NCBI GenBank assembly: GCA_937120535.1
Contig: CAKZJX010000118.1
Location: forward strand, 1-61,661
DNA: 61,661 nucleotides
Direction: 5' to 3'
Source of the DNA: an uncultured Anaerolineae bacterium
GTDB taxonomy: Bacteria; Chloroflexota; Anaerolineae; Anaerolineales; Villigracilaceae
This document shows, one piece after another, positions 22,408-27,328 of the stretch. Positions within the stretch are counted from its first letter, which is position 1, and every line of letters begins with the position of its first letter. The notes under the pieces were generated by a model, which was not told the origin of the DNA, did not search any database, and was given only the letters and a program-made list of their open reading frames with translations. A program made the position numbers and the translations under genes.

Positions 22408-23319
22408 TCACCCCACCATCAGCCTGTTGATCACCACAAAGACTGTAATAATTGTTAACTGCGCCAGAGGATAGAAGCTCGCGCTATCGAACAACCGCGC
22501 TGCCAGGCGACCGTCCAGCGTCTTATATAACAAGTATCCCGGACGCAACAGGAACCATACGCCGGCGGCCAGCGTGGCCAGCAAATACGGCCAACCCAAC
22601 GGCAAAGGCGAAAGGATCGGCAAGAACAAGCTGACGATCACTGTGAGGACCAACATGACCAAGGCGATCTGGCCGGCGCGTCGTGGCCCCAACTGCAAGG
22701 GGATGGTCTTGGCGTTGACTCGTCGATCCTCTTCGGTGTCGTTCCAATCGGCGGGGATGTTCTGCCCACCGATCTCCCAGCAAAACACCCACGCCAAGGC
22801 CAACAACAGCCATTCGGGGCGCGGATTGGGTTCCACCACGAAGATAGCTGCGATCGGGCCGCTGGATTTGACAAAACCACTCACCACCGTCCGCCAGTAG
22901 GTCACCTTGAGCAGCAGACAATAAATCACCTCCAACATGGCTGCAGCTAGCAGAATGATCACGATCACCGGATTGAGCAAATAGGATCCGATCAGGGCGG
23001 CCACAAACCAGCCGGCAAACCAGAGCAGACCGCTGCGGTAACTGAGCACACCTTGAGCCAGCGGATAGCGTAGCGCCGAGGCTTCCACCGAATACCCAGG
23101 GTTGATGCCCCCCACAAATTTCTCTCGGTCGGCGACTACACCCATCAGATCGTTCAGCGCATAAATCGCTGTATAGGCGGCAAAAGCGGTAAACAACGAA
23201 AGCAGGATAATTGGCAAGGGCGGAAAGTCGCCTAACCAGAGCAAGGCGTAAAAACCAGGTGCGGCAATATCCAACACGCCGTGAGTGGTGCGAGAAAGGG
23301 CAAAAAAGGGCCGAAGCAT
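22408..23319 (-). CDS. UbiA-like membrane prenyltransferase
   Basis: A 303-residue polytopic protein with about eight or nine helices. It has both aspartate-rich motifs of the UbiA superfamily: NDLMGVVADREKF (first motif, Mg-diphosphate site) and DWNDTEEDRRVN (second motif). GGGAGGGAG directly precedes ATG 23319; a longer in-frame reading is not needed. It is the last gene of the five-gene operon with the UbiG-like methyltransferase (19 bases upstream) and the sugar phosphate cyclase. UbiA enzymes attach prenyl groups to aromatic or other polar acceptors. The cyclase next door suggests that the acceptor could be a cyclitol, and the arrangement is comparable to EboC in ebo-type gene sets. Standard quinone synthesis is an alternative. 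Confidence 0.85.
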   Translation of the reverse strand: MLRPFFALSRTTHGVLDIAAPGFYALLWLGDFPPLPIILLSLFTAFAAYTAIYALNDLMGVVADREKFVGGINPGYSVEASALRYPLAQGVLSYRSGLLWFAGWFVAALIGSYLLNPVIVIILLAAAMLEVIYCLLLKVTYWRTVVSGFVKSSGPIAAIFVVEPNPRPEWLLLALAWVFCWEIGGQNIPADWNDTEEDRRVNAKTIPLQLGPRRAGQIALVMLVLTVIVSLFLPILSPLPLGWPYLLATLAAGVWFLLRPGYLLYKTLDGRLAARLFDSASFYPLAQLTIITVFVVINRLMVG

Positions 23320-23338
23320 AACTCCCTCCCTGATCAGG

Positions 23339-24049
23339 TCAGTCTTTAGCAAAGTGCATGAAGTAGTTGACGTCTTCCTTATCGTATGCCAAGCGGAAAC
23401 AACGAGTGAATGGATTGAAGATCAGACTAGCGCTGCGCACAAAACGCAGGCCGGCCTGAGCCCCCCAGCGACGCAGCTCCTCCGGCCGGATCAACATTCG
23501 ATAGACATGCGTGCCGCGCGGCAACAAGCGAAAGATATACTCCCCGCCGATGATGGCAAACAGAAACGCCTTGGGGGTGCGGTTGATGGTGGAAAAGAAC
23601 GCCTGTCCCCCTGGTTTCAGGGCCCGAGCGCAGGCAGCCACTACCTTTGCGGGTTCCGGCACATGTTCCAGCATTTCCAAGCAGGTTACGGCGTCAAAAA
23701 AAGCAGGGCGTTCGGCGGCAATCTGCTCAGCGCTGGCGTGAACATATTCAATCTCCAAGCCTTGCGCTCGAGCATGGCGACGCGCCACCTCAAGGGAAGG
23801 TTCAGAGAGGTCAATGCCGGTCACCTGGGCGCCGCGGCGGGCCAGGGCTTCAGCCAAGATGCCGCCTCCACAACCTACGTCCAGAATGCGTGGCGCCGTT
23901 GTCGTGTGATCCAATCGCTCGAGGATAAATTGTGTCCGCAGAGGGTTGATGGTGTGTAATGTCCCCATCTCTCCCTGCGGGTCCCACCAGATTTGAGAGA
24001 CGCGATCAAACTTCTCGATCTCAGCATGATCCACATTCATGTGCTTCAT
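23339..24049 (-). CDS. UbiG-like SAM-dependent O-methyltransferase
   Basis: A 236-residue class I methyltransferase. The N-terminal IWWDPQGEMGTLHTINPLR is the signature of UbiG-type polyprenyl-catechol O-methyltransferases, followed by motif I ILDVGCGGGILAEALA, the acidic end of beta2 (VTGIDLSEPS), and LEMLEHVPEP. The amphipathic region YIFRLLPRGTHVYRMLIRPEEL also matches UbiG. The start overlaps the cyclase stop by four bases (ATGA). Chloroflexota are not known for ubiquinone, so this enzyme probably methylates another prenylated or ring-hydroxylated lipid made by the operon. Exact substrate unknown. Confidence 0.88.
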   Translation of the reverse strand: MKHMNVDHAEIEKFDRVSQIWWDPQGEMGTLHTINPLRTQFILERLDHTTTAPRILDVGCGGGILAEALARRGAQVTGIDLSEPSLEVARRHARAQGLEIEYVHASAEQIAAERPAFFDAVTCLEMLEHVPEPAKVVAACARALKPGGQAFFSTINRTPKAFLFAIIGGEYIFRLLPRGTHVYRMLIRPEELRRWGAQAGLRFVRSASLIFNPFTRCFRLAYDKEDVNYFMHFAKD

Positions 24050-25182
24050 ACCCGTATTACCGCCCAGTCTTTGAGAGAGTGTACGGCACGTTCGATTTCC
24101 TCAGGACAAATATCGTTCACGAACACACACTGGCCGATCCCTTGCGGAATTGGAGCGCGTTGCAAACCATTGCGATGATAAGTACGCTCCACAAGTGATT
24201 CCCAGAGCAGGGCCGGGGTGAGCACCCCATAATCCAGCTCGATGCCCAAAGTATGGATCAAGCAGAACAGGCGTTCTACTTCAACAGCGGTCAACAAGCC
24301 GCGCCCTTGAGCGATGATCGAGGACAGAAGAATATCGAGCAGCACCGCCTCGCCATGCAAGAGATGCCTGGCATGATGCGCTTCTAGGCCATAACTAAAG
24401 GTGTGTCCAAAATCCATCTTGCGCTCCAGATCATCCTCGAAGAGGTTGGGTTCCAACTCTTCCAACACATCCTCGATGGCACGCCTCAAGATAGCTTCGC
24501 CGACCGGGTTTTGAAAACTTGCCTCCACACTCTCTGCGCCGTGAGACTCCAACCACTCAAACAGTTCGGCGTCCTTGATCACGGCTAATTTGACGATCTC
24601 ACAAATCCCATTCAAAAGATGGCGACGCGGCAAGGTCTTCAGGAACGCCTTGTCCAGCAAGACCAACCGCGGCGGATGAAACGCCCCCAAGCGGTTCTTG
24701 TTGCTGTTGAAATTGATGCCAGTCTTGATCCCGATTGATGCGTCGATGTATCCCATCAGCGTGGTCGGCACCTTAACATAGGGCACACCGCGGCGATAAC
24801 TGGCGGCCACAAACCCCACCAGATCGGTCAACACCCCACCTCCGATAGCCAGAATCGGCTCATCGCGGCGATAGATGGGGAAGGCGTCCAATTCGCGCAC
24901 AATGCGCACGTAGTGTTCCAGAGTCTTGTTTTCCTCTCCCCCCGGAAAAGAGACGATACGCGTCTGGATGCGATGATGGTCGAAGTAAGCGCGTATCGCC
25001 TCACCATAGTAGGCTTCGACAGCTGCATCCACCACGACGAAGCGTCGAGCGTCGAGACGACGCCCGACGGCCAACAGCGCTGGATTGTCGGGATGGAAGA
25101 GGTCGGAGGTGGTGATCACCTCATAGGTGACGGTCTGGGTATAGGCCACGCGACGAGCTTGGGGGAGAACTAGGTCCATCAT
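24046..25182 (-). CDS. Sugar phosphate cyclase, 2-epi-5-epi-valiolone synthase-like
   Basis: A 378-residue member of the dehydroquinate synthase fold. NAD-binding and core motifs are FPGGEENKT (about 79-87), GGGVLTDLVGFVAASYRRG (114-132), PTTLMGYIDASIGIKTG (139-155) and NFNSNKNRLG. Metal ligands would be Glu195 (CEIVK), His260 (DFGHTF) and His276 (LHGEAV). True DHQS enzymes have GHTFGHA; here the sequence is GHTFSYG, so the second catalytic histidine is lost, as in valiolone-synthase-type cyclases acting on sedoheptulose 7-phosphate. The KNRLGAFHPP segment also fits that group better. ATG 25182 overlaps the luxS stop. The likely product is a C7 cyclitol; the exact stereochemical class (EEVS, EVS or DDGS) cannot be decided by eye. 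Confidence 0.88.
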   Translation of the reverse strand: MMDLVLPQARRVAYTQTVTYEVITTSDLFHPDNPALLAVGRRLDARRFVVVDAAVEAYYGEAIRAYFDHHRIQTRIVSFPGGEENKTLEHYVRIVRELDAFPIYRRDEPILAIGGGVLTDLVGFVAASYRRGVPYVKVPTTLMGYIDASIGIKTGINFNSNKNRLGAFHPPRLVLLDKAFLKTLPRRHLLNGICEIVKLAVIKDAELFEWLESHGAESVEASFQNPVGEAILRRAIEDVLEELEPNLFEDDLERKMDFGHTFSYGLEAHHARHLLHGEAVLLDILLSSIIAQGRGLLTAVEVERLFCLIHTLGIELDYGVLTPALLWESLVERTYHRNGLQRAPIPQGIGQCVFVNDICPEEIERAVHSLKDWAVIRV

Positions 25183-25658
25183 ACAATCTGTCGCCATTGA
25201 TCCTTTGCAGCTAGAACGCGTCGTGCGAGGGCTTGGGCCATTTCCAGGCTGTGGTTCTGATAATTGCCACATTGGGTAATGTTAGCATATGGCACTTCGG
25301 TGGCTACCAGGATGTCGTTTAGGATCTTCTCGTACACGTCCATGATGATCTCAGCACGACCTTCATTGAGTAGGATCAAGTAGAAGCCGGTCTGACATCC
25401 CATCAGCCCGACGGAAATGAAGTGGTTCGGCAAGTATTTCTGAAAGCCCCACAGCAGGAAATGCTCAAACGAATGCATTTCGGTGGTGCTGAGGAACTCG
25501 GTGTTCGGGCGATTGAGGCGTAAGTCTACGGCATAGACCACGTCCCCGTTGGGGCCGGGACGGGCAGCGCGCAACTTGACATGGGGCGCTTTGAGCCGAC
25601 GATGATCCAACTCGCCAACGGTATGGACATCCCAACCAAGTTGTTCGACATTGATCAT
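25179..25658 (-). CDS. luxS: S-ribosylhomocysteine lyase (LuxS)
   Basis: A 159-residue LuxS. The metal site is complete: His62 and His66 in MHSFEH and Cys130 in TQCGNYQNHSL; the catalytic Cys88 lies in GLMGCQTGFY and the general base Glu65 in HSFEH. The substrate-binding DHRRLKAP region is near the N-terminus. LuxS cleaves S-ribosylhomocysteine to homocysteine and DPD, the AI-2 precursor, in the SAM recycling cycle. The start at 25658 has TGGAGAA 8 bases upstream; a longer reading overlaps the isomerase gene. It lies inside the cyclase operon, overlapping the cyclase start by four bases, next to a SAM-using methyltransferase. No pfs (nucleosidase) gene is in the window. Confidence 0.93.
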   Translation of the reverse strand: MINVEQLGWDVHTVGELDHRRLKAPHVKLRAARPGPNGDVVYAVDLRLNRPNTEFLSTTEMHSFEHFLLWGFQKYLPNHFISVGLMGCQTGFYLILLNEGRAEIIMDVYEKILNDILVATEVPYANITQCGNYQNHSLEMAQALARRVLAAKDQWRQIV

Positions 25659-25708
25659 AGGCTTTCTCCAAAAAGCAAATAGGTTGATGAATAAGCAAGC
25701 ACAGCACG

Positions 25709-26953
25709 TTACACGAACTGGGAGAGATAACGATAGCTGTCGTGCAAGGCTTTCTCCCAAGAAGCCACGTGATGGTACAGTTCCACAGAAGCGTAGCCAG
25801 AAAAGCCGTTATCGGTTAGGGCTTTGAAACTGGCGGCAAAATCCATTGTGCCTTCGCCCGGGATCTCGTGGAAATGCACGATGCCAGTCAAAGTATTGGC
25901 CACCATTTTGTCTACCAGCGGTTTACCGTTTTCATCGCGTGCGGTGCGCAAGTAGAGGATGATCGGCCGGGCACGCTCCAACACGTCAAAGCTCAGGCCG
26001 GGAGTCGAAATCAGGTAGACGAAAATCTCGTTGTCGATCGGAGAGGAGCCGGCATAGAGGCTGTTGTAATCCACGAACGCCAACGGAACCGAGATGTTCA
26101 CCGAGGAGAGAATGGCCTCCACCCGTTTCATCTGGGCCGGCCCAGGCTGCTCGTCGTCGTAGAAATAGATCGGATGATCGGGGTCGACCAGCAGATACTC
26201 GGCCGTCTCTGGGAAGTAGATCAGGTAACGGGCGAAGTTCAGGTCGAGGCGCAGGCCCTCCGACATCTTGACCAGCTTTAAGTTATAACCCTCCTGAGCA
26301 TCCGAGACATGTAAGAAGCGCGTATATGGTGCCGCTTTGGCCAACGCACCCAGATAATTCTGCTCCGAACAATAGTTATGACACAGGTCTAGATGCAGTT
26401 GAAAATGCGGCGAGTTGACCTCTTTCACTAACCGAATGCCCTGCTCTAACGTTTCGATATGCATCCCTGGCTCGGGTTCGATCAGCAACGTGATGTCTTC
26501 ACCGGGGCGGATTTCTTTCAGGCACTGATGGATGCTATCCACTAGCAATTCGTGGGGATCAATGGAGGGGTTGTTCAGGTGTTCGTCACGGATGAAACCG
26601 CTCCCGAAGGTGACCAGGGGTACCCCCAGTTTACGCGCTACCCGAATCCCGCGTTTGATCAGGTCAATTCGGCGCTTGCGGCCGGCCAAGTCAACGCTCA
26701 TCAACGAGGGCTCATGAGGGCGCGAGGGAGTGAAAAAATGCGAAGCCGTCGCCACACAGGCTGCTCGAACGTTGAGGCGGCCCAATGTCCGCTTGACAGC
26801 GTCCAAATCGTCGTCGGCGATCTCGAAGGGATTGAATTGATCGCGATGAAAGGCCAGCTCAATGCCAGGATACCCTGCCCGATCCACCGCCTGAATGGCA
26901 TCCAAGAACGTCAGATTGGTTAATCCAAAGGTGCTATAGCTAAGTTGAATCAT
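25709..26953 (-). CDS. TIM-barrel sugar phosphate isomerase/epimerase with insertion
   Basis: A 414-residue xylose-isomerase-like TIM barrel. It starts IQLSYSTFGL, with metal-site strands TLLIEPEPGMH, FQLHLDLCHN, RFLHVSDAQEG and, at the end, YASVELYHH. Members are usually 270-300 residues; this one has about 110 extra residues at roughly 235-345, between the HVSDAQEG strand and GIVHFHEIPGEG. First gene of the operon: TGGAG lies about 9 bases before ATG 26953. Related barrels occur beside valiolone-type cyclases and in ebo-type sets (EboE), so epimerisation of the cyclitol product or its phosphate is a reasonable guess. The true substrate is unknown. Confidence 0.85.
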   Translation of the reverse strand: MIQLSYSTFGLTNLTFLDAIQAVDRAGYPGIELAFHRDQFNPFEIADDDLDAVKRTLGRLNVRAACVATASHFFTPSRPHEPSLMSVDLAGRKRRIDLIKRGIRVARKLGVPLVTFGSGFIRDEHLNNPSIDPHELLVDSIHQCLKEIRPGEDITLLIEPEPGMHIETLEQGIRLVKEVNSPHFQLHLDLCHNYCSEQNYLGALAKAAPYTRFLHVSDAQEGYNLKLVKMSEGLRLDLNFARYLIYFPETAEYLLVDPDHPIYFYDDEQPGPAQMKRVEAILSSVNISVPLAFVDYNSLYAGSSPIDNEIFVYLISTPGLSFDVLERARPIILYLRTARDENGKPLVDKMVANTLTGIVHFHEIPGEGTMDFAASFKALTDNGFSGYASVELYHHVASWEKALHDSYRYLSQFV

Positions 26954-27255: not shown

Positions 27256-27328
27256 TGCCCCCACGGGGATTCGAACCCCGGTTTTAGCCTTGAAAGGGCT
27301 GCGTCCTGGTCCTCTAGACGATGGGGGC
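27256..27328 (-). tRNA. tRNA-Glu (anticodon UUC)
   Basis: A 73-base tRNA on the minus strand. The acceptor stem is GCCCCCA pairing with TGGGGGC, followed by discriminator A. The T arm is CCGGGG-TTCGAAT-CCCCG. The anticodon loop is CTTTCAA with anticodon TTC; the outermost pair of the anticodon stem is a C-A mismatch. CCA is not encoded. It has its own promoter (27347-27375) and terminator (27215-27242). Confidence 0.95.

Follow-up and report, generated by a model that had tools for sequence, protein, structure and literature searches.

A five-gene operon was found on the minus strand, at 22408-26953, of the window considered here, that is, the whole 61,661-nucleotide stretch of contig CAKZJX010000118.1 (C118) from an uncultured Anaerolineae bacterium of the family Villigracilaceae. 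It encodes a xylose-isomerase-like TIM barrel, a LuxS homologue, a sugar phosphate cyclase, a UbiG-like O-methyltransferase and a UbiA-family membrane prenyltransferase, and appears to represent a C7-cyclase/prenyltransferase pathway into which LuxS has been recruited. With a probability of roughly 0.55, we hold that these genes form a self-sufficient pathway that has moved between phyla as a unit and would convert sedoheptulose 7-phosphate into a prenylated, O-methylated C7 ring in the membrane.

LuxS is usually credited with a single job, the cleavage of S-ribosylhomocysteine, and a genome that has it is easily taken to use autoinducer 2 (AI-2) signalling. Here a LuxS clade found in three phyla, and in one metagenome-assembled genome (MAG) of a fourth, is tied to a biosynthetic operon and has lost a key binding residue; the carriers, among them mycobacteria, are probably misread if taken for AI-2 producers. 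This loss, and the recycling of S-adenosylhomocysteine (SAH) in the hosts by another enzyme, go beyond what the initial annotation of this DNA had seen. Since the unit is small and portable, and its five genes seem to make it complete, its product can be sought directly, and it would add a class of prenylated C7-ring compounds beside the product of the ebo operon. In the literature searched, which excludes most subscription journals, the five genes were found in print only as a list of neighbours: the NirS neighbourhood of Chloroflexi SURF MAG 42 contains the same five genes in the same order, RJP53741-RJP53745 (PMC8756737, Table A1). That paper, the one in the searched literature to contain both LuxS and a valiolone synthase, gives them in its available portion as neighbours of NirS and proposes no pathway there, and the view of the initial annotation that the pathway is undescribed is right so far as was searched.

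Gene content and conservation of the operon

The genes are numbered in the order of transcription, and their coordinates include the stop codons. The first (25709-26953) encodes the TIM barrel, a 414-aa xylose-isomerase-like protein of the AP_endonuc_2 family (PF01261, 121.8 bits), and is followed after 50 bases by the LuxS homologue (25179-25658; 159 aa; PF02664, 116.3 bits). The third, the cyclase (24046-25182; 378 aa; DHQ_synthase, PF01761, 131.8 bits), overlaps both the LuxS gene and the fourth gene by 4 bases. The latter encodes the UbiG-like protein (23339-24049; 236 aa; Methyltransf_11, 99.3 bits), and a gap of 19 bases separates it from the fifth gene, which encodes the UbiA-family protein (22408-23319; 303 aa; PF01040, 95.4 bits against a cut-off of 34.2). 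The five minus-strand genes, with the overlaps and gaps described in the initial annotation, are thus borne out by the coordinates and by Pfam and NCBIfam matches.

The association of these genes is far beyond chance. A contig scan seeded with the cyclase, in which two peptide patterns kept 80 of 91 relatives and missed distant variants, gave 39 loci from Chloroflexota, 36 from Pseudomonadota, three from Mycobacterium, one from a Vulcanimicrobiota MAG and one from Clostridia. Three to five of the genes stand in the same order in 79 of the 80, which cover Chloroflexota, Pseudomonadota, Mycobacterium and the Vulcanimicrobiota MAG, and the order is never violated. All five are at least partly present in 75/80 loci, and at 85-115% of the window lengths in 67/80. 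Three loci (L127, L128 and L153) are truncated by contig ends, and another (L154) contains nothing but a DHQS-like protein of 31% identity (DHQS, 3-dehydroquinate synthase).

Searches seeded with LuxS covered 894 sampled genomes, namely 298 of the window's own class, 299 of Lysobacterales and 297 of the genus of Mycobacterium szulgai. Strong matches were obtained in 18 (9/298, 4/299 and 5/297, respectively), and every one adjoins a TIM barrel, a cyclase and a UbiG gene. The nine matches from the own class all fall within the window's family (9/14 family genomes, the window's own included), where the same five genes occur in one order and on one strand in 9/9. Outside the cluster, LuxS was matched only once, partially and at 21.5 bits, in a Lysobacterales locus that does not contain the cluster (G506). 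The 80 loci had already included four of the nine Lysobacterales and mycobacterial genomes, those of M. angelicum, M. szulgai, M. simulans and Lysobacter sedimenti. The initial annotation had named a lack of co-occurrence in related genomes as grounds for refutation; the genes were found together widely.

Pairwise distances of the five proteins correlate at 0.82-0.89 (67 loci and the window), from which the five-gene unit is judged to evolve as one. In the cyclase tree, M. angelicum is grouped with Chloroflexota (support 99/92), which points to transfer between phyla. No conserved sixth gene was seen, the commonest flanking family being present in 12/79 loci (counted up to 8 kb out, or to the end of the locus where that came first), and the commonest flanking families look generic by eye.

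Some loci carry interrupted frames. The TIM barrel of L184 (M. simulans) matches as two pieces about 100 bases apart, and short frames lie within the contig for the cyclase and UbiA in L152, UbiA in L131 and the TIM barrel in L093; these are either real breaks or assembly errors.

A separate clade of sugar phosphate cyclases

The cyclase belongs to a separate clade that groups with 2-epi-5-epi-valiolone synthases (EEVS) and desmethyl-4-deoxygadusol synthases (DDGS), and it is predicted to be a sedoheptulose 7-phosphate cyclase. Its best PDB match is 4p53 (343.6 bits), followed by 5tpr (257.9 bits), which bears the entry title 3-dehydroquinate synthase and which we take to be the DDGS of Anabaena; the best other DHQS reaches 174.8 bits. 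The first of these, 4p53, is ValA, an EEVS (PMC4426668).

A tree of 38 sugar phosphate cyclases was built with 23 of the 80 cluster sequences (the window and 22 chosen loci); no proven 2-epi-valiolone synthase is among its rows. The reference rows were taken from plasmid records: four (L156-L159) are annotated as sedoheptulose 7-phosphate cyclase; the DDGS row L155, assigned by reading, adjoins an O-methyltransferase and lies near a D-Ala-D-Ala-ligase-domain gene; and the EboD rows (L160-L162) stand beside annotated EboE genes. The cluster cyclases form a single clade (100/99) and are grouped with the seven EEVS/DDGS-type rows at 99/98, with EboD and DHQS outside; these seven hold together at just 86/77, which leaves the exact branching beside the cluster clade open. 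The three EboD rows form their own clade (100/100) outside this group. Several branches are long, and the outgroup is not one side of any branch. DHQS is represented by only three rows (two solved, one from the own genome); 8/9 family AroB loci were left out by a motif filter disallowing GHTVGHA.

An ordinary role as AroB is rejected for this protein. It fails the NCBIfam aroB cut-off (234 against 305 bits) and does not cluster inside the DHQS rows of the tree; the initial annotation had proposed this phylogeny, with such clustering as grounds for refutation. In addition, a separate PF01761 frame with GHT(V/I)GHA is present in 14/14 family genomes, as GHTVGHA in 13 and as GHTIGHA in the own genome, and a second PF01761 copy over the cut-off occurs only in the nine family genomes with the cluster.

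The motif GHTFSYG, as claimed, is present at residues 259-265. Cluster cyclases read DFGHTFSYG, compared with D(F/Y)GH(S/T)F(S/G)P in EEVS-type rows, AYGHTWSP in DDGS, DFGHWAAH in EboD and NLGHTFGHA in DHQS. Column counts were taken over 77 rows, from 79 loci and the window after removal of three frames that were broken, cut or run on. At position 264, 69 rows have Tyr, seven have His and one has Gln, whereas EEVS- and DDGS-type rows have Pro (SP in 4/5 EEVS-type rows, GP in the fifth). D257, E278 and H336 are found in 77/77; the first two match 5/5 EEVS-type rows and H336 matches 4/5, the fifth having R. The DDGS rows have A and T where the cluster has D257 and H336, the sites which we take to be those separating EEVS from DDGS. 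Since the EboD rows carry the same three letters, these count against DDGS without singling out EEVS. The assignment to C7-sugar cyclases made in the initial annotation therefore stands as to the EEVS/DDGS grouping, but the enzyme is not simply a valiolone synthase, with its own clade and Tyr, His or Gln in place of Pro.

A LuxS homologue probably apart from its usual role

The cluster LuxS shares fold, metal ligands and catalytic residues with the S-ribosylhomocysteinase of the AI-2 pathway, and differs from it in Asp78 and other binding positions, in that no nucleosidase partner was detected in the own genome, and in lying inside this operon in every strong match. The AlphaFold2 (AF2) model shows a clean LuxS fold (pLDDT 96.3) and aligns with H. 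pylori LuxS (1j6x) over 148 residues (Z 22.9, root-mean-square deviation (rmsd) 2.9). Eighteen cluster LuxS rows separate from five solved LuxS at 100/100.

Residues were tabulated over 79 cluster sequences, with L128 left out; the numbers used for the sites Ser6, Phe7, His11, Arg39, His54, His58, Cys84 and Cys126 are, presumably, those of B. subtilis LuxS. Seven metal and catalytic positions (metal ligands and Cys, Glu, Arg and His) are invariant in 79/79. The Asp78 equivalent is lost in all, being Ser in 70, Cys in five and Gly in four; the Phe7 site is Gly in 79/79, and the Ser6 site is never Ser. At the Arg65 site, Gln is found in 43, Arg in 14 and other residues in 22, and the next residue is Lys or Arg in 75/79. 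Asp78 and Arg65 are both present in 5/5 solved LuxS whose alignments were printed. Glu57, Arg65 and Asp78, in B. subtilis numbering, are described as important for substrate binding (PMC2656534), and Cys84 is likewise named for LuxS (PMC3907816).

The hosts recycle SAH by another route, as SAH hydrolase is present in 14/14 family genomes and in 14/15 other carriers. The model of the SAH/methylthioadenosine nucleosidase, TIGR01704, has no match in the own genome, and where this enzyme is absent there is no usual source of S-ribosylhomocysteine. Over 24 cluster genomes, TIGR01704 gave some match in 18, mostly weak and partial, and five over the cut-off, namely three mycobacteria, a Burkholderiaceae MAG and G148; none is over the cut-off in 8/9 family genomes with the cluster.

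A more conventional view is that this LuxS still cleaves S-ribosylhomocysteine, whether for recycling the SAH that UbiG produces or for AI-2 synthesis, with no tie to the other genes beyond co-transcription. The retained fold and catalytic residues, the production of SAH by UbiG, and the nucleosidase over the cut-off in 5/24 cluster genomes with a weaker match in 13 more are consistent with it. Nevertheless, we regard it as unlikely in view of the family genomes, in which SAH hydrolase is universal and, in 8/9 with the cluster, no nucleosidase is over the cut-off (the own genome having no match at all), of the changed Asp78 and Phe7 sites, and of the 894 sampled genomes, in which the partial match in G506 is the only one away from the cluster. 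The LuxS homologue appears no longer to serve in quorum sensing, its usual role.

TIM barrel, prenyltransferase and methyltransferase

The AF2 model of the TIM barrel (pLDDT 94.9) best matches T. maritima 2zvr over 251 residues (Z 30.1, rmsd 2.3), a ketose 3-epimerase fold, and an insert is visible by eye at about residues 225-345. E159, D189, H215 and E391 are invariant in 73/73; we take these to be metal and catalytic residues by a correspondence read from the alignment. In the VIA list ketose 3-epimerases rank first, and AsbF and a TIM-barrel/dioxygenase fusion occur in that of Foldseek; an epimerase cannot be told from a dehydratase by this fold search.

The residues of the UbiA-like protein were likewise counted over 73 rows. 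Its motifs ND......D (N56, D57, D64) and D..D...D (D191, D194, D198) are found in 73/73, and the middle Asp, which we assume to belong to the usual first motif of UbiA, is not conserved. The protein reaches no NCBIfam equivalog cut-off and has no PDB sequence match to E 0.1. The UbiG-like protein passes TIGR01983 (250.5 against a cut-off of 102.95 bits) and matches 4kdc, a 3-demethylubiquinone-9 3-methyltransferase, at 245.6 bits and near full length (residues 4-233). It resembles the UbiG of ubiquinone biosynthesis in this full-length match over the family cut-off, and differs in sitting with a cyclase and LuxS; its function here is predicted. Prenylation and O-methylation, as put forward in the initial annotation, are a natural expectation from UbiA and UbiG homologues with intact motifs.

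The own assembly contains nine UbiA-family matches, that of the cluster included. The matches (stretches L167-L173) comprise two heme o synthase-like proteins, one of them over the cut-off, one MenA over the cut-off, three MenA/PRK05951-like proteins and one decaprenyl-phosphate phosphoribosyltransferase-like protein, all four below the cut-off, and one unassigned.

Proposed pathway and possible products

From the genes, clades and residues described above, we infer substrates, an order of steps and a product. The cyclase would first convert sedoheptulose 7-phosphate into a cyclitol ketone of the 2-epi-5-epi-valiolone type. The TIM barrel, with its intact metal site and glutamate pair, would then epimerise or isomerise this compound beside the carbonyl via an enediolate. 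Third, the metal, Cys84 and Glu57 machinery of LuxS would act on the C7 ring and not on S-ribosylhomocysteine. In the usual LuxS reaction, a carbonyl is shifted along a polyol before a final beta-elimination. The carbonyl and hydroxyls of a cyclitol ketone would suit the chemistry of both LuxS and the xylose-isomerase-like barrel, and both enzymes are therefore placed on the C7 ring. UbiA would next attach a prenyl chain, and UbiG would O-methylate a neighbouring hydroxyl. The carbonyl migration of LuxS proceeds via a 2-keto intermediate (PMC3907816).

Several observations weigh against this proposal. Family homology does not give a substrate, and the product and the activities are predicted. 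The loss of Asp78 is by itself no proof of a new substrate, and an Arg is kept at the Arg65 site in 14/79 cluster LuxS, with a basic residue next to the site in nearly all. The nucleosidase matches in 18 of the 24 cluster genomes count likewise, and a diverged nucleosidase could have been missed in the own genome, whose assembly is 97.94% complete. The sharing of D257, E278 and H336 with EboD leaves the cyclase less narrowly defined. UbiA-family enzymes also prenylate non-aromatic acceptors, and the ring chemistry is thus open. Finally, one locus (L090) has no UbiG between the cyclase and UbiA, and in another, from the search of the M. szulgai genus (L187), UbiG (39-45%) is more diverged than the neighbouring genes; methylation may be optional or changed in these two.

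Two types of product fit the proposed steps equally. One is a gadusol-like enone with a prenyl chain; the other, a hydroxyquinol-type ring, would lead on to a quinone resembling ubiquinone. In the former, a specific version of the proposed pathway which we hold possible but tentative, the cyclohexenone (enediolone) would be kept, O-methylated and anchored through the UbiA-borne chain as a membrane antioxidant or protectant. The pathways to gadusol and mycosporines (EEVS with MT-Ox, DDGS with a methyltransferase) similarly follow a C7 cyclase with an S-adenosylmethionine-dependent methyltransferase, and the EEVS rather than DDGS letters of the cluster cyclase at D257, E278 and H336 would suit such a product. 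The cluster differs from them in its Tyr, His or Gln at position 264 where EEVS- and DDGS-type rows have Pro, and we know of no prenyltransferase or LuxS in those pathways. The close relationship of the methyltransferase to UbiG (245.6 bits to 4kdc) speaks against a gadusol-like product, which would also leave the two enediol-type enzymes with little to do. Gadusol itself is made in fish by EEVS and MT-Ox, a protein that includes a methyltransferase, and 4-deoxygadusol by DDGS and a methyltransferase (PMC4426668).

The quinone version, which we consider rather doubtful, would make the operon a new oxygen-independent, sugar-derived route to a ubiquinone-like accessory membrane quinone, with LuxS as the aromatising enzyme. 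To our knowledge, no aromatising function has been described in the LuxS family. By our own bookkeeping, two waters would be removed from the cyclase product C7H12O6 by the action of LuxS and the TIM barrel to give trihydroxybenzyl alcohol, C7H8O4, by beta-elimination at C5, a carbonyl shift from C1 to C2 and elimination at C3. UbiA would then prenylate the ring and UbiG would methylate the catechol, giving a methoxy-polyprenyl-hydroxymethyl benzoquinol. If so, neither chorismate nor tyrosine would be the source of the ring.

Such a quinone would be accessory, because genomes with and without the cluster do not differ accordingly in respiration: COX1 is found in 9/9 family genomes with the cluster but also in 4/5 without it. 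That these Chloroflexota owe their main respiratory quinone to the pathway, as the lack of an MqnA-type gene in 14/14 family genomes, MenD over the cut-off in just 3/14 and the quinone-pathway families of UbiA and UbiG might suggest, is very improbable. Besides COX1, the MenA over the cut-off in the own genome, the presence of the cluster in all three genomes with MenD, and its rarity in the sampled Lysobacterales (4/299) and mycobacteria (5/297) stand against it, and a main respiratory role is not supported by the MqnA, MenD, UbiA and COX1 tests over the 14 family genomes. As a separate matter, 13/14 family genomes encode COX1 despite an MqnA-type gene in 0/14 and MenD over the cut-off in 3/14, with MenA over the cut-off in the own genome.

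Relation to known systems

In Actinoplanes, the BE-40644 pathway uses EEVS, and farnesylation follows later, presumably catalysed by a member of the UbiA superfamily (PMC5133447). Compared by description only, it resembles the proposed pathway in making a C7 cyclitol from sedoheptulose 7-phosphate that is later prenylated by the UbiA superfamily; it differs in that neither LuxS nor a TIM barrel is named for it in the available portion of that paper.

The ebo operon (eboABCDEF) likewise joins a sugar phosphate cyclase, a large xylose-isomerase-like TIM barrel and a UbiA homologue and is spread over phyla, so that these three protein types are brought together in two kinds of operon. The five-gene unit might accordingly be a divergent ebo operon, the TIM barrels of both being of about 400 aa and having in common an EPEP...DxCH-like stretch (hhalign E 0.0019, probability 14, 49 columns). 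This is highly improbable, and ebo membership was rejected. The cyclase lies outside the three EboD rows (100/100), the TIM barrel reaches 14.8 bits with the EboE model against a cut-off of 250, and a profile comparison of UbiA with EboC, with two rows only on the EboC side, gave a probability of 1.7. Moreover, the conserved unit has five genes, LuxS and UbiG among them, in place of the remaining ebo genes; no sixth conserved neighbour was seen in the flanks, the EboA, EboB and EboF models not having been run over the genomes. The ebo-like trio named in the initial annotation thus holds by enzyme type but not by membership.

In one plasmid, that of Azospirillum sp. B510 (L162), the ebo operon lies near deoC and an annotated autoinducer 2 ABC transporter substrate-binding protein. 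This is an odd echo of the LuxS link and may be due to chance.

Genomic surroundings

The window belongs to a 3.1-Mb assembly, and the closest relatives that bear a name are MAGs of Anaerolineales and Chloroflexi. Promoter-like and terminator-like sites are at chance level (four found against 3.0 expected, and four against 5.6, respectively). A tRNA-Glu(ttc) gene lies on the minus strand at 27256-27328, about 300 bases upstream of the operon. Mobility of the operon linked to tRNA was considered and rejected, as 49/56 other scanned loci show no tRNA gene; the only recurring one among the 56 is a tRNA-Ala gene about 7 kb downstream in the three mycobacterial loci. Upstream of the operon in seven pseudomonadotal loci (L108, L113, L118, L120, L122, L123 and L139), a gene resembling L-aspartate oxidase by eye is found, in L108 with a gap of 11 bases.

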